IMG/VR virus record: IMGVR_UViG_3300047388_000243
Span: 1-25,044 of that record
Direction: 5' to 3' (one strand)
Length of the DNA: 25,044 nucleotides
From: a virus
In this document: positions 6,425-24,309 of the stretch, one piece after another
How positions within the stretch are numbered: the first letter of the stretch is position 1
Layout of the letters: the number at the start of each line of letters is the position of its first letter
Program-made: the position numbers and the translations under genes
The notes under the pieces: model-generated
Told to the model about the DNA's origin: nothing
What the model saw: the letters and a program-made list of their open reading frames with translations, nothing else
The model's database searches: none

Positions 6425-7388
6425 ACCGACCACCCCATCGACTGCTGCCGATTGCCGACCTCACGGGGTTTCGGGCGAACCATCCCGCTGCCGCTGTATC
6501 CGCTGCCGCCCGCTGAGATTCCACCCGCGCCACCGCCGCCACCCTGGATGATCTGCGCAATCGTCGCGCTCGGATCTCCGCTGTAGGGGCTGGCACCCAT
6601 CGTGCTGTTGAAGGGGTGCCAGCCGCCCTGGTTCCCGTAGCCGCCCAAAATGGAGACGCTCGAGTTCGGGTCCGAGCCGGGCGGGTAGGAGGGCGCGGCG
6701 TCCATGCCGAGCGGAGCCATCGGCCCGCGCTGGTCGTGGTACGGCGAGTCCATGCCCATCGGGCGAGGCGCCATCTGCGGGGGGCCACCCATCGGAGGAC
6801 CACCCATCGGGGGTCGCTGCATTCCGCCGCGCCGCTTGGCCATCATCGCCATGAGGATCGCTCTGAGTGCGGCGGCGTGCTGCGGGTTGCCTGGCTGATG
6901 GGGATGACGCGCCATCGGCCGCATCGCGCCCGGTGCTGGCGCGGCACCAGCCATCGGAGGAGCTCCGGGCCGTCGAAGCCGTACATGCCGCCGCCGCCCT
7001 GCTTGGGCATCATCTGGGCCTGCGGAGGGGGCGCCTGCGTTCCGCCACCACCGCCCTGACCGCCGCCCTGCAACAGCCCCATGATCGTCTGCATCGAGTT
7101 CGCAGGCTCCTGCCCGTAGACGCCGCCGCCGGGAAGTTGCATCGAGCCCGGTGTCGGGCCGCCGCCAGTCTGCGCCTGCTGCCCGTAGCCACCTTGGTAG
7201 GGATTGAACATCCCTCGCCCTTGTCCCGTGAACAGCCCCTGCGCCTGCTGCGGCGAGCCAGTGAAGCCGTATGGCGCAGCCTCCTCGCCGATCAGTTTCC
7301 GCATGAGGAGATCGCGCAGGATATTGAAACCAGGCGGCTCCAGGTTGGGCTGGGGCGTCAACTGCGGCTGCTGCGTGAGGCTTGCCAT
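6421..7388 (-). CDS. Pro/Gly/Gln/Met-rich virion-type protein split by a probable 1-base deletion
   Basis: Starts at ATG 7388 after AGGAG (5-nt spacing). It begins MASLTQQPQLTPQPNLEPPG, followed by a helix DLLMRKLIGEE, then Gln/Gly/Pro-rich sequence. At about 6965 the reading frame breaks: the first frame turns into RWLVPRQHRARCGRW and stops at 6843. A second open frame continues the same composition from ATG 6954 (MAGAAPAPGAMRPMARHP) to 6421. Adding one C to the plus-strand CC at 6965-6966 joins them smoothly as GFDGPGAPPMAGAAPAP and gives 322 residues. The alternatives are two separate overlapping genes or a -1 ribosomal frameshift. The C-terminal part has MGGPP repeats and a Gly-rich tail, and its stop overlaps the next start (ATGA). 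It is probably a structural protein; the family is not recognised. Confidence 0.6.
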
Positions 7389-12924: not shown

Positions 12925-13858
12925 AAGATGCATGAATCTGGTGCTCCTCAGAATCTGTATCGAACCGCCATGCTAACACAAATCCGCCCATGTAGAAGCT
13001 GGCCTCGCGCCGATCGCGGCCGAAGTCCTGCGGGATGCCGTAGCGAAGGTGCGGAGCCTGGGCGACCGCCTGAAGGCAGTTGTCGGCGCCGAAGTAGAAG
13101 GCCTCCGCGAATCCCACCGTGTTCGTGCCCGAGGGGGACGCCGTCGCGTTGTTCTCCTCGACGAAGCGGATGTTGGCGTACTTGCCGACCTCAGAGTAGA
13201 ACAGCTTGTCCGGCTGGTGATACTTCGAGACCTCGACCCACTCGGTCGAGTCCTTGATGCCGCGAACGTGGTCGACGTTGCCGATGCAGAAGTAGCAGCC
13301 CTCGGAGAGAGCCGGGATGGAGTTGCTGCGGAAGTTATCCGAGATGTCGCGAAGGTGGAAGGGGGTCATCATCGAGCCGGCAACGGCACCGGCAGCGCCG
13401 GTCGTCGAGAACTGGCCCGTCGAGGCGGTGAGCGGCGTGTAGTAGACGCGGCCGAGACCGTAGGCGGCGTAGGCGACCTTGTCGATGCCTTCGATCTGAT
13501 CCTGCCGCAGCGCGAGCGCGACCATCTGGCCGATCGGGAACTGCGAGTAGGTGTCCAGACGCTCCGTCCAGGAGACGCTGTTGGCGTACTCGGTCGTGGT
13601 GATCGTGGTCTGGACGATCGGGAAGTTGGTCTCCGGGACCGGGTCGACCTCGCCGATGCCCGCCGTGTTGAGCGACGTGTTGAGCCGACCGATCTTGTCG
13701 ATCAGCAGTCGGTCGCTGCGATGCTTGCCATACGACGCGCAACCGAGCGTCATCTGCTCGAAGTACGTCGTGTGGGTGGCGCGCTGCCGCAGTTCCGCGT
13801 CGATCGAGGCGGTTGCGGAATAGCCGCCGTAGGTGTTGACCCCGAAATTCATGGACAT
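12917..13858 (-). CDS. Major capsid protein, N4-gp56-like family
   Basis: 313 residues. ATG 13858 follows GGGAGGT, which overlaps the end of the scaffold gene; a second ATG two codons later is also possible. The N-terminal part (YFEQMTLGCASYGK), the extended arm with IVQTTITTTEYANSVSWTE, the helix VALALRQDQIEGIDKVAYAAYG and the C-terminal AFYFGADNCLQAVAQAPHLRYG stretch match the pattern of N4-gp56-like major capsid proteins with an HK97-type fold. The order scaffold then capsid, downstream of portal, is standard. The TAA stop lies at the edge of an 8-bp inverted repeat (12901-12924). Confidence in the capsid role is high; in the exact family it is good. Confidence 0.9.
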   Translation of the reverse strand: MSMNFGVNTYGGYSATASIDAELRQRATHTTYFEQMTLGCASYGKHRSDRLLIDKIGRLNTSLNTAGIGEVDPVPETNFPIVQTTITTTEYANSVSWTERLDTYSQFPIGQMVALALRQDQIEGIDKVAYAAYGLGRVYYTPLTASTGQFSTTGAAGAVAGSMMTPFHLRDISDNFRSNSIPALSEGCYFCIGNVDHVRGIKDSTEWVEVSKYHQPDKLFYSEVGKYANIRFVEENNATASPSGTNTVGFAEAFYFGADNCLQAVAQAPHLRYGIPQDFGRDRREASFYMGGFVLAWRFDTDSEEHQIHASSL

Positions 13859-15404: not shown

Positions 15405-16004
15405 TCAGTCGTCTGCGAGTAGAACTACCTGATTCGAGGGCTTGATCGCCTGCCCGGTCGGAACGATCAGGCCGTACTCGGCGCCGTAGACTCCGGGCGT
15501 CCAGTCGTACTTGGCGATGAAACCCATGAAGGGTTTTGCCCCGGACAGTCGCTCCTTCTTCGACCAGCGACGCCAGTGATCCCCGCCGCAGTAGATCAAT
15601 GGCGGAGCCATCTTCTTCGCGCCTAGAACCGTCCACTGCTCGGAGACGACATCGCGAAGCCACATGAAGTAATCGCGGTCGTCCATTGTCGGCTGTATCC
15701 CGGTAGCCCTTGTGATTCTTTCGTTTACGGGCAGGGGGACGTCAGTACGGATCATCGCCGTGAAGCTGTGTTCCGGGCTCCAGACCGAGGCGTCCATCGT
15801 CTGGTCGATGATGCAGGAGTCGTGGATGTAACGGTGGAAGGCGGCCGTCCGCAGACGGTCTACGAGCGCGAGCGTCTTGTGGAACGTGACGAGGCCGCTG
15901 GTGTTGAACGGCTTGTTGGGCTCCGGCAGATCCTCGTACCTCGGCGTAGGAACTTCGTCTAACCCGTACTGGGCGGCGAGCTCAGCCTCGCGCTCGGGAG
16001 TCAC
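15405..16004 (-). CDS. Hypothetical protein downstream of portal
   Basis: 199 residues from a GTG start that overlaps the portal TGA (GTGA). It reads as a compact globular protein with many Trp, Tyr and Asp residues, for example MWLRDVVSEQWTVLGAKKM, GGDHWRRWSKKERLSG and AKYDWTPGVYGAEYGLIVPTG. The beginning (TPEREAELAAQYGLDEVP) is helical and acidic. I recognise neither a family nor a catalytic motif. Coupling to portal suggests a head-assembly role, such as a head protease replacement, a portal partner or a minor head protein; none is supported by a visible motif. Confidence 0.7.
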   Translation of the reverse strand: MTPEREAELAAQYGLDEVPTPRYEDLPEPNKPFNTSGLVTFHKTLALVDRLRTAAFHRYIHDSCIIDQTMDASVWSPEHSFTAMIRTDVPLPVNERITRATGIQPTMDDRDYFMWLRDVVSEQWTVLGAKKMAPPLIYCGGDHWRRWSKKERLSGAKPFMGFIAKYDWTPGVYGAEYGLIVPTGQAIKPSNQVVLLADD

Positions 16005-21874: not shown

Positions 21875-22293
21875 CACCCGCAGAAGCCGAGAAGATCATC
21901 GACGAGCAGGGCATCGGCTCGCTCATCATCACGCTCTACCCCGCGTCGGACCCAAAGCGCATCGCCCTGTTGCGCCTTCTCAACGCCTGTGAGAGAGCCA
22001 ACAACGCCGTCGACTGGTGTGGTCAGTTCCTCTCCCGATTCTTGGTCGAACCCAACGAATACCTAGCCGACGAAGTGTTGTGCGAAGAAGCCGAGCGTCT
22101 CGCCGGAAACCTTCAAGTCCTCGCGCAAGAGCTCAGAAAATCGCTGCCTGTGCTGTCGAAAAGGGGTGACGACCGTGTCGAAGGAAGACCAGTTCGACTT
22201 CGCGGCGAAGGTCAGGCGCCAGATCGAGAAGGCGAAAAACGCCCCGAAGGTCGAGACCCCGAACTCGACGACTGGCGCGACGTCCCCTTCTGA
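21871..22293 (+). CDS. Hypothetical early protein with long 3' overlap
   Basis: 140 residues if started at GTG 21871 (GTGA overlap with the previous stop). Residues 1-95 are convincing: an acidic helical domain with IIDEQGIGSLIITLYPASDP, LLRLLNACERANNAVDWCGQ and EVLCEEAERLAGNLQVLAQELRKSL. The last about 40 residues (from 22166 on) are Arg/Glu/Gly/Pro-rich and lie over the start of the ATPase gene in another frame. Either the overlap is real or a lost stop or indel has extended the frame. No family recognised. Confidence 0.62.
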   Translation: MTPAEAEKIIDEQGIGSLIITLYPASDPKRIALLRLLNACERANNAVDWCGQFLSRFLVEPNEYLADEVLCEEAERLAGNLQVLAQELRKSLPVLSKRGDDRVEGRPVRLRGEGQAPDREGEKRPEGRDPELDDWRDVPF

Positions 22294-23377
22294 CCAGGAG
22301 CCCTGGTCCCTGTCGACCGATCAGGTCATCGCGACGATGGCCCTCGTCGGAGACCCGGTTCCTACAGGCTGCCCCTTCATCGACCGCGAACTCCGCCACG
22401 AAGGCATCCCGGCCGGCAAACTGATCCTCGTCTGTGGCCCGCCACAGTCCGGCAAGTCCCTCCTGCTTGCCCAGTCCATGCTCCATATGGCCAAGACCAA
22501 CCCCGTCTACACCCTCATGGCCGACGCCGGATGGCACGACGTCTCCGTCTCCATCGCCTCAATGGTCGGGCTCGACCGAACCAAAGTCGAGCGCAAGCCT
22601 TCAGAGATGGCCCAGGAAGCCAAAACGCTACTCGCCGAGGTCACACTGACCCATGTCAACCCCGAGCATCCTGAAGCCACCCTGAAGCGATTCTTCGACT
22701 ACGTCACCGAAACCTGCCCCAAAACCGAGACCCCAGTCGTCTTCGTCGACTCCGCGCAGGTCATCCGCCACGGCCTCGGAGATCCGCCAGAGGACAAGAC
22801 CGTCCCAGAGATCATCGGCGCCATGTGCCGCACCTTCGCCATCCGCCGACGCGCCATCGTCTTCCTCTCGTCCAAGGCCAACCGAGCCTCCTGGAAGTAC
22901 CGCCGCAAAGACGAAAACACCGTCCCACTCGCAGGATCCATGGGCGGCGACTTCGAGTACACCGCCGACCTCGTCCTCTTCCTTTCCCTCCCCGACAAGA
23001 AGACAGGCTTCATCCGACTCGAGTGGGCCAAAAACCGCCTCGGTAAACCACACCCCCAAGACGTCACCCTCCGATACGATCAATTTACCTGCTCCCTCCT
23101 CGAAGTCGACGAAGCCGAAATCGACTCCGCCTCAGCCACCGAAAATAATAATCGCCTCGGCCCAATTAAATTAAAAATCCGCGCCGCCCTAAAAGGCCAA
23201 CCACCCCTCTCCAAAAACGCCATCTGCGAACTCGTCAAAGGCAAGCGCACAGACAAATTCGAAGCCATCTCCGCCCTGGTCGACGAAAAAAAACTCGACG
23301 TCTACCCAGCACCCTCCGGCCGCGGCATGCTCTACAAGCTCATAAGCCGCGAGCCAGAGGAGGGAACTTCAAACTGA
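22175..23377 (+). CDS. RecA-fold ATPase with C-terminal winged helix (replication or recombination)
   Basis: 400 residues from GTG 22175, which has AAAAGGGG about 8 nt upstream; GTG 22166 is in frame but abuts that site. A charged N-terminal stretch is followed by Walker A GPPQSGKS (88-95) and Walker B VVFVDSAQ (about 188-194, D192). A Ser/Lys motif follows (VFLSSKANRASWKYR) and then FEYTADLVLFLSLP, like the sensor and last-strand elements of RepA, DnaB-C and Sak4-like RecA-fold ATPases. Residues about 330-395 (LSKNAICELVKGKRTDKFEAIS then RGMLYKLI) look like a winged helix. It could be the replicative helicase or a recombinase; the two cannot be separated by eye. It sits directly upstream of the origin-like region. 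Near 23140-23180 base composition becomes AT-rich. Confidence 0.82.
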   Translation: MSKEDQFDFAAKVRRQIEKAKNAPKVETPNSTTGATSPSDQEPWSLSTDQVIATMALVGDPVPTGCPFIDRELRHEGIPAGKLILVCGPPQSGKSLLLAQSMLHMAKTNPVYTLMADAGWHDVSVSIASMVGLDRTKVERKPSEMAQEAKTLLAEVTLTHVNPEHPEATLKRFFDYVTETCPKTETPVVFVDSAQVIRHGLGDPPEDKTVPEIIGAMCRTFAIRRRAIVFLSSKANRASWKYRRKDENTVPLAGSMGGDFEYTADLVLFLSLPDKKTGFIRLEWAKNRLGKPHPQDVTLRYDQFTCSLLEVDEAEIDSASATENNNRLGPIKLKIRAALKGQPPLSKNAICELVKGKRTDKFEAISALVDEKKLDVYPAPSGRGMLYKLISREPEEGTSN

Positions 23378-23499
23378 AATTCCAGTTCCAAAGACCAGTT
23401 CCCGGTTCCCAGTTCCCCTAAAGGGGAGGGAACTGGGGAACCGATAGAATGGTCGAGTTCCAAGGAACCACTCGGGAACCAGTGGGAACTTTGGGAACT
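23362..23499. repeat. Cluster of about ten GGGAAC[CT] motifs in both orientations
   Basis: GGGAACT, GGGAACC or their complements AGTTCCC, GGTTCCC (some with one G fewer) occur at about 23362, 23384, 23397, 23404, 23411, 23428, 23435, 23456, 23464, 23474, 23484 and 23493. Density is far above anything else in the window. The first copy lies inside the end of the ATPase gene and the rest just after it. The array resembles iteron or multi-site protein-binding DNA. Confidence 0.7.
23404..23442. repeat. Large imperfect inverted repeat
   Basis: GGTTCCCAGTTCCC (23404-23417) pairs with GGGAACTGGGGAACC (23428-23442) with one extra G; the loop is about 10 nt. It could form a long hairpin in DNA or RNA. 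No T-tract follows on either strand, so a classical terminator is unlikely, although it could stabilise or end the ATPase transcript. Confidence 0.65.
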
Positions 23500-23520
23500 T
23501 TGGCCCTAACGCGAGGCGAC

Positions 23521-23529
23521 TTATCCACA
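23521..23529 (+). other. Perfect DnaA box
   Basis: TTATCCACA exactly matches the bacterial DnaA consensus. It lies between the GGGAAC[CT] cluster and the AT-rich repeat block, where a replication origin would be expected. One 9-mer can arise by chance, so context carries the argument. Confidence 0.5.
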
Positions 23530-23547
23530 GGCACCAGTGGGCATTTT

Positions 23548-23571
23548 GGGGGGTGGCATGGGGGGGCTGGG
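23548..23571 (+). other. G-quadruplex motif
   Basis: Four usable G-tracts: G6 at 23548-23553, loop TGGCAT, then G7 at 23560-23566 (which can supply two GGG with a one-base loop), loop CT, and GGG at 23569-23571. It fits the four-tract folding rule on the plus strand. A role is not shown; the location beside the DnaA box and repeats is suggestive. Confidence 0.45.
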
Positions 23572-23624
23572 CATGGTCCATGGCCGGCGGAGGCCCCGAG
23601 CGCGCCGCGACCACTACCGCTTAT

Positions 23625-23727
23625 ACTTACGCCTCAAGCGTCAGTTATGTAAAGCGATAACTCCTTTATGTGCAGCGATATGGTATTTACGTAATGCACG
23701 TTATCGGACGTAACTTACGCCTCAAGC
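23625..23727 (+). repeat. 15-bp direct repeat flanking an AT-rich block
   Basis: ACTTACGCCTCAAGC occurs identically at 23625-23639 and 23713-23727, 88 bp apart start to start. Between them is the most AT-rich stretch of the region, with TTATGTAAAGCGATA (23645-23659) and TTATGTGCAGCGATA (23666-23680) 21 bp apart, which is two helical turns, and the palindrome TTACGTAA (23687-23694). The TTATGT repeats also begin with weak DnaA-box-like 9-mers. This looks like the initiation or unwinding part of an origin. Confidence 0.6.
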
Positions 23728-23745
23728 TCCGCGGGCTGGCAGAAA

Positions 23746-23760
23746 GTCTGAAATCCAGAC
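23746..23760. promoter_or_regulatory. Operator-like palindrome, variant copy
   Basis: GTCTGAAATCCAGAC, a one-mismatch palindrome around three central bases, differs from the two exact copies downstream at two positions. Same spacing of half-sites, so probably bound by the same regulator with lower affinity. Confidence 0.5.
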
Positions 23761-23784
23761 AATGGCGCTCCGAGGCTGCCACAA

Positions 23785-23798
23785 GCAGACGAGTCTGC
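23785..23798. repeat. Short perfect inverted repeat
   Basis: GCAGAC-GA-GTCTGC: six-base arms with a two-base centre. It shares the AGAC/GTCT core with the operator-like sites but in inside-out order. Could be a related binding site or chance. Confidence 0.35.
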
Positions 23799-23825
23799 CG
23801 TTCCGACTGTCCATTTTCTGGAATT

Positions 23826-23840
23826 GTCTGAGATTCAGAC
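23826..23840. promoter_or_regulatory. Operator-like palindrome, exact copy 1
   Basis: GTCTGA-GAT-TCAGAC, a perfect six-base inverted repeat with three central bases. With two preceding T bases it is identical over 17 nt to the copy at 23885-23899, 59 bp away. Typical form of a dimeric repressor or activator site. Confidence 0.6.
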
Positions 23841-23884
23841 TTTTGTGTACCCTGTCTATTTCTGTTTTGAGATGGTACGGGTTT

Positions 23885-23899
23885 GTCTGAGATTCAGAC
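23885..23899. promoter_or_regulatory. Operator-like palindrome, exact copy 2
   Basis: The same GTCTGAGATTCAGAC site, 68 bp before the -35 of the promoter at 23967. That distance suits activation or looping repression better than direct occlusion. No candidate regulator gene is obvious inside the window. Confidence 0.6.
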
Positions 23900-23966
23900 A
23901 GGGATACTCCCTTTGGATTTTCTTTTGGGGTCTGAAAATAATTCGTCCTTGAGGGAATCTTTTCGC

Positions 23967-23995
23967 TTGACAGTGCGTATTGGTAGGCGTAGATA
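23967..23995 (+). promoter_or_regulatory. Strong candidate early promoter
   Basis: TTGACA (23967-23972, full consensus), 17-nt spacer, TAGATA (23990-23995). The end of the spacer and the -10 read GGCGTAGAT, as at 20299-20307. Transcription would start near 24002, followed by AGGGAG (24006-24011) and the ATG at 24016. It sits just downstream of the operator-like palindromes. Confidence 0.62.
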
Positions 23996-24015
23996 GATAC
24001 CACGCAGGGAGTACG

Positions 24016-24309
24016 ATGGCTGAAAGGACGGGTAACGTCATGACGAAACGGGACTATGAGGCTATCGCGGGCTCGATTCGACGCATCCGTAAGATCGGAT
24101 CCCGTGATCCCGCGCCGCAAGCGCCGTCCTTGCACCTGCGGCCACGCGAACGGCTATCACGGTCTGGACGGCTATTGCTCGCACGAGGGTTGCTACTGCG
24201 GTGGATACCGGGAGAAGCCGAAACCGAAAGCGAGGAAAGCCAATGCCGAGCGCGGATGATTTCAAAGACTACCTGGCGAGAGTCAAAGAAGCCGAGGAGA
24301 TCGGCTTGA
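24016..24309 (+). CDS. Small early protein MAERTGN..., frame uncertain after residue 30
   Basis: ATG 24016 has AGGGAG 4 nt upstream and is the first start after the promoter. Residues 1-30 (MAERTGNVMTKRDYEAIAGS and on to IRRIRKIG) resemble the MTKxDYxxIA start of small phage proteins. After about 24100 this frame becomes Arg/Leu-rich without sensible structure, while another frame carries a Cys-rich protein. The real product may end early through an indel, or fuse to the Cys-rich frame. The given end is simply the first stop in this frame. Confidence 0.4.
   Translation: MAERTGNVMTKRDYEAIAGSIRRIRKIGSRDPAPQAPSLHLRPRERLSRSGRLLLARGLLLRWIPGEAETESEESQCRARMISKTTWRESKKPRRSA
24104..24259 (+). CDS. 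Cys/His-rich small protein
   Basis: GTG 24104 gives 51 residues. It has CTCGHANGYHGLDG, then YCSHEGCYCGGYREKPK: five Cys and three His in about 25 residues, a clear metal-binding knuckle. Similar short CxCGH...C...CxC proteins are common in phages of high-G+C hosts. No good ribosome site is seen at this GTG, and the frame is one step from the gene starting at 24016. So it may be the C-terminal part of that gene after an indel near 24095-24105. Its 3' end overlaps the next gene by 17 nt. Confidence 0.52.
   Translation: MIPRRKRRPCTCGHANGYHGLDGYCSHEGCYCGGYREKPKPKARKANAERG

Follow-up and report, generated by a model that had tools for sequence, protein, structure and literature searches.

We propose that an uncultured tailed phage carries a compound locus for replication and recombination, in which an origin is fused to a site for the host Xer recombinases that would serve either integration at dif or the resolution of multimers, and we regard this reading as probable. 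The window, that is, the whole stretch of DNA analysed, is the complete record IMGVR_UViG_3300047388_000243 with its 25,044 bases, and is probably a fragment of the virus genome. Leftward genes occupy its first 21 kb, among them genes for portal-like and terminase-like proteins, and the terminase-like protein has relatives in other viral contigs with which the virion gene order is shared. A helicase gene on the plus strand (22166..23377) is followed by a noncoding region (23378-24015) and then by an operon of small rightward genes, the first of which lies at 24016..24309 on the plus strand.

Relatives were gathered by terminase searches of viral contigs, among which the helicase as a direct probe gave no match. 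The DNA-level search returned no close phage relatives, searches with the helicase or the portal protein only distant ones, and the helicase search of plasmids only general RadA/DnaB-like matches. The terminase of L002 (7.2 kb) is 79% identical to that of the window, followed by those of G001 (43.7 kb, comprising loci L003, L009 and L010; 64%), L013 (47%), L008 (46%) and the distant L014 (24%). In G001 there is a relative of a later rightward-operon gene (24799 on). G001 also encodes a Ro60/TROVE-vWA protein between the helicase and the origin module (L003:5165-6883), next to a YrlA-like Y RNA match (L003:4924-4988) whose 31 bits fall short of the gathering score, and a YqaJ-type nuclease adjacent to a RecT-type annealing protein (L009:6339-8196).

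The helicase gene encodes a DnaB-like ATPase of the RecA fold, a candidate helicase or initiator (Pfam AAA_25, 4e-8; PHROG DnaB-like helicase, 1e-14). Its predicted structure has a C-terminal winged-helix-like domain at approximately residues 315-395, with helices followed by two strands (pLDDT ~88); the full-length model, with a mean pLDDT of 57, was too poor for a fold search, and a relative gave a weak HTH_24 match. At and directly after the end of this gene lies a putative initiator-binding array (23363..23498), made up of GGAAC/GTTCC motifs that run in both directions and take the forms AGTTCCC, CCAGTTCC and GGGAACTTT; it holds 12 of the window's 78 copies. The original prediction did not report this densest repeat array, and its coordinates left it out. 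Regularly spaced direct iterons are absent from the array; because its spacing is irregular and its motifs run in both orientations, it may work like an iteron-plasmid origin without being a member of that class. The perfect DnaA box and the G-quadruplex motif named in the original prediction are both present. The box, TTATCCACA (23521..23529, plus strand), is the sole copy in 25 kb, where 0.02 would be expected, and the G-rich block (23539..23575, plus strand) has a G-quadruplex-type pattern (G3+) that recurs nowhere else on either strand of the window. The DnaA box stands beside a repeat array and a candidate initiator gene, an arrangement kept in L002 with other repeat sequences and with the box ~24 bases further upstream; the same 9-mer occurs in the noncoding modules of both L002 and L008. 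The G-rich block is not conserved as such: the closest relative lacks the G-quadruplex pattern.

The noncoding block at 23503..23698 is conserved with L002 at 69% identity (E 4e-11) and includes CCCTAACGCGAG, ACCAGTGGGC, the G-rich stretch and TACTTACGCCT. The L002 helicase is just 35% identical to that of the window, and the module is kept downstream of its gene. The layout, from helicase gene through array and DnaA box to the G-rich and AT-rich blocks, is found again in a relative whose array differs in sequence: the array of L002 consists of CAGCAC motifs, with 7/10 of the contig's copies inside it, and adjoins the helicase gene as in the window. G001 has a CCTGTTC array near its own dif-like site, and it contains neither TTATNCACA nor a perfect DnaA box. 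An array that has changed in sequence and kept its place is what might be expected if an initiator and its binding sites co-evolve.

Upstream of the rightward operon there are three copies of the palindrome GTCTGAGATTCAGAC, at 23744-23760 (imperfect), 23824-23840 and 23883-23899, and at the corresponding place L002 carries another palindrome, TTGTGACAATTTTTGTCAC. Judged from their sequences, these palindromes look like repressor operators with a swapped sequence. A TTGACA-17-TAGATA motif is found near 23968. A conserved noncoding block upstream of an operon, with palindromic operators after it, might also represent a structured RNA or a transcription leader instead of a DNA element. We rejected a structured RNA, because the folding was no better than that of shuffles on either strand (z 0.8, 1.7 and 0.4) and no Rfam family matched, and we regard this explanation as highly improbable. 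L008 and L013 share a separate noncoding block of ~105 bp (L008:7101-7199 and L013:3752-3854; 73% identical) with CCCTAA/TTAGGG complementarity, which has no Rfam match and, in L008, no fold signal.

The origin reading gains support from GC skew. With 1-kb flanks, the strongest local switch in the window falls within the array at 23,422, where it scores 243 as against 91 for the next best, and with 1.3-kb flanks it falls at 23,536. Gene direction does not explain this switch, since the genes on both sides run rightward. A skew turn had been predicted near 23500-23700; the strongest local switch, at 23,422-23,536, agrees with it, but the cumulative minimum of the whole fragment lies elsewhere, at 12,989, and on a fragment the switch is not decisive. 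For G001, the global skew minimum and the strongest switch coincide at 15,475-15,476, inside its own array (315 versus 97). The global minima of L008's record (15,969, corresponding to L008 ~7,400) and of L013 (3,573) also fall within or at the margin of the respective noncoding modules, where the genes diverge, so that transcription could explain them. The strongest switch of L014 is 160 bp from its dif site.

Short-repeat arrays are typical of partition sites and of Xer accessory sites, and in the window, L002 and G001 only a short distance separates the array from the Xer site. The GGAAC array might accordingly bind a segregation or recombination accessory protein at a centromere-like or accessory locus, with replication starting elsewhere. 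We consider this improbable, because the array contains the skew switch in both the window and G001, the array adjoins the helicase gene in the window and L002, and neither ParA nor ParB-N gave a family match in the six records, which are incomplete. The original interpretation of 23521-23727 as a replication origin is supported in part, by the skew switch and by the recurring layout; what holds less well is the reading of the AT-rich half as an origin feature only.

That half contains a 28-bp dif-like XerC/XerD site on the minus strand (23684..23711), ACGTCCGATAA-CGTGCA-TTACGTAAATA, with the 11-bp XerC arm ACGTCCGATAA at 23701-23711 and the 11-bp XerD arm TTACGTAAATA at 23684-23694. A first matrix, built on five known dif sites, ranked 23684-23711 top in the window. 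A second matrix was based on 48 published dif sites, 47 from Table 1 of PMC2731167 and the Frankia site from PMC3025954. With it the site scored 21.6 bits, as compared with shuffle maxima of 0.2 +/- 2.9; none of 40 order-2 shuffles of the window reached it, and the second-best place in the window, its own reverse aside, scored -3.0 bits. A spacer of 6 is by far the best, giving the 11-6-11 layout with conserved inner bases (..ATAA / TTAyGT..), and the site is a single copy in the noncoding region 23378-24015 with low G+C (11/28 versus 62%). Its XerC arm is identical to that of Anaeromyxobacter dehalogenans dif, and 22/28 bases are common to the site and Myxococcus xanthus dif (both sequences from PMC2731167). 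The pattern ACGTCCGATAA-N6-TTATGTNAA has at least 120 matches in bacterial genomes, and the pairing of the window's XerC arm with TTATGT as XerD arm exists as a genuine dif type. The closest among the matches listed share 24/28 bases and come from a Myxococcales and a Succiniclasticum genome, so that a Myxococcota-like host group, as suggested by the closest characterised dif sites, is a guess.

The dif-like site is not confined to the window. In the L002 contig the top-scoring site of this kind occupies the orthologous position (23.7 bits), L013 has one in its noncoding module (17.2 bits), L014 has a canonical dif site (32.3 bits), and the site of G001 (15.3 bits) lies ~190 bp from the skew minimum, with 0/40 shuffles reaching the score in each case; L008 has none by the 48-site matrix. 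In G001 the XerC arm is identical and the XerD arm degenerate, and phage dif mimics typically have such a degenerate arm (PMC3025954, PMC5357621). In L014, a winged-helix-like replication gene (L014:8018-8940) contains three AGAAGTTTCA repeats at 24-bp spacing and TTATCCACA on the minus strand, and the canonical dif ACAGCGCATAATACGTATTATGTTAAAT follows just downstream. Taken by its sequence, the window site suggests a candidate XerC/XerD target, through which the phage might borrow host enzymes either for insertion into the chromosome or for separating copies of itself.

The remaining AT-rich elements are arranged around this site. The exact 15-bp direct repeat ACTTACGCCTCAAGC (23625..23639 and 23713..23727, plus strand), which 0 of 1000 shuffles of the 640-bp region reach, had been thought to frame the whole set of motifs; the repeat exists, but it encloses only the AT-rich block at 23625-23727 and neither the DnaA box nor the G-rich block. 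In the window, L002 and G001, ACTTACGCC adjoins the dif-like site, and it has no other copy in the sequences examined. The two 21-bp-phased TTATGT..AGCGATA units (23645..23680, plus strand) are as originally described, with TTATGT at 23645 and 23666 and AGCGATA at 23653 and 23674. They resemble Xer half-sites, with an XerD-arm score of 13.5 bits at 23645, a likeness that is suggestive only. TTACGTAA is likewise present near 23687, but as part of the XerD arm of the 28-bp site. With an XerC/XerD site as the dominant conserved AT-rich element, a target for host recombinases accounts better than a melting element for at least half of the interval first reported. The DnaA box, the adjacent helicase gene, the repeat array and the skew switch would all be compatible with an origin only, in which the AT-rich block would serve for unwinding and carry initiator repeats, and its likeness to dif would be coincidental. 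Such a coincidence appears quite improbable given a dif score far outside the shuffles, an XerC arm identical to a published dif, and dif-like sites that are the contig's best at the orthologous place in L002 and close to the skew minimum in G001.

We also surveyed dif-like sites more widely, in 49 viral contigs of ~15 kb or more with a strict dif pattern and 27 control contigs with a scrambled pattern. A large-terminase family match was found in 35/49 strict-dif contigs (19/26 and 16/23) versus 6/27 scrambled-pattern contigs, which indicates that dif-like motifs occur in many tailed-phage contigs, with the caveat that some of the motifs may be host flanks of prophages and that the control differs in origin. 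The dif hits lay outside open reading frames at 34 of 45 non-redundant loci, compared with 10/27 in the control. A general rule that places dif-like sites at skew switches in viral contigs was not above control and was dropped. DnaA boxes near dif numbered 12 versus 3.1 expected in one set of other viral contigs, mostly from one group with the same spacing, and the perfect box was not enriched near dif in the other set; we did not use this enrichment.

What the analysis shows are the motifs and how they are conserved, together with the skew switch and the match to dif; from these we infer a series of biochemical steps for the compound locus. The left part would be a theta-type origin, at which the helicase/initiator encoded upstream binds the repeat array, probably via its C-terminal winged helix, and host DnaA would bind the adjacent TTATCCACA box. 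The duplex might then open and the helicase be loaded. The right part, a 28-bp dif-like core with ACTTACGCC repeats at its flanks, would be the target of host XerC/XerD on a circular phage genome. Recombination there would most likely occur with the chromosomal dif of the host, producing a prophage in the manner of integrative mobile elements exploiting Xer (IMEX), or else could resolve phage multimers. The more specific reading, in which an integrase-less lineage of tailed dsDNA phages possesses a composite origin-attachment module and is inserted by host XerC/XerD at the chromosome terminus, we put forward tentatively, with somewhat less than even confidence.

The role of the dif-like site as an attachment site is deduced from its likeness to dif. 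Phage genes flank it on both sides in the window and in G001. Neither PF00589 nor PF00239, the tyrosine and serine recombinase families, matched in the six records, all of them fragments, and a pattern search found no Y-recombinase box. The size-matched scrambled-pattern contigs gave 0/27 integrase matches as well, so that the missing integrase carries little weight and was dropped as evidence. The terminase scan of bacterial genomes returned no relative, and no integrated copy or dif-phage junction was found. Two identical dif-type sites 7.1 kb apart in the same orientation in a Myxococcales genome (L074:112-137 and 7224-7249) were considered as the ends of an integrated element and rejected, since they flank a single large non-phage gene for a 2356-aa repeat protein; the pair is a possible chromosomal dif module, and two more dif matches are found on other contigs of that genome (L068, L106).

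Since the dif-like site lies beside an origin and not beside an integrase gene, it also fits plasmid-style multimer resolution. The phage might then be a plasmid-like circular prophage with the locus as its basic replicon, and the site would serve host XerCD in multimer resolution, as do cer, psi and pdif. Resolution sites often lie beside origins on plasmids, and here too the core adjoins the origin. The conserved ~150-bp block beside the core could be an accessory sequence, and the RecT-like annealing protein and YqaJ nuclease of G001 could create multimers. We nevertheless find this explanation rather unlikely, on considerations none of which is decisive: the six records gave no ParA or ParB-N match, the XerC arm copies the host dif to its outer bases, as expected for pairing with the host dif, and multimer resolution would oppose concatemer packaging unless regulated.

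Known exploiters of Xer recombination include filamentous phages, tailless phages (PMC9966536, PMC11630473), and the gonococcal island and LME-1 (PMC5357621, PMC9765430), and tailed prophages of marine Vibrio have been described as relying on integrases of their own (PMC11630473). A search of the open-access full-text literature yielded no account of a tailed phage with a dif-type attachment site, which is weak evidence given that only open-access papers were covered. If the phage is inserted by host XerC/XerD as proposed, Xer hijacking would extend from filamentous and tailless to tailed phages. In a tailed phage, a dif mimic joined to a putative origin would bring to light lysogeny, or maintenance as a plasmid, that integrase-based prophage finders miss, and the arm of the mimic would provide a host prediction, Myxococcota-like, for an uncultured phage. 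The question of whether integrase-less tailed phages are temperate is thereby made directly testable.

The locus combines features of several known systems. Like the dif sites of Myxococcota (Anaeromyxobacter, Myxococcus), the window site is a 28-bp 11-6-11 element, intergenic, single-copy and low in G+C, with an XerC arm, ACGTCCGATAA, identical to that of Anaeromyxobacter and with inner bases mostly kept; unlike them, it lies in a phage genome beside a putative origin, its XerD arm differs at several bases and its recombination is only predicted. With the IMEX, namely the filamentous CTXphi, VGJphi and TLCphi, the tailless NO16-type phages, the gonococcal genetic island and LME-1, it shares a host-like dif mimic with one imperfect arm, and also the lack of a visible integrase in the window and its relatives' records, although these are fragments and controls were equally negative. 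In contrast to the IMEX, the window has tailed-phage virion genes (terminase-like, portal) and a 43.7-kb relative, and it is known from sequence, the integrated copy not having been found. Plasmids too exploit host Xer recombination, and the plasmid origins with iterons and DnaA boxes, together with the plasmid Xer sites cer, psi and pdif, resemble the window in the initiator-adjacent array, the DnaA box, the AT-rich stretch and the nearby Xer site, but differ in that the window array is irregular and in both orientations, the carrier is a phage and no partition genes were found. In lambda-type phage origins, the origin repeats are tied to the replication gene, as they are in the window, whereas the gene in the window encodes a DnaB-like helicase with a winged helix instead of an O-like protein, and a host DnaA box is present.
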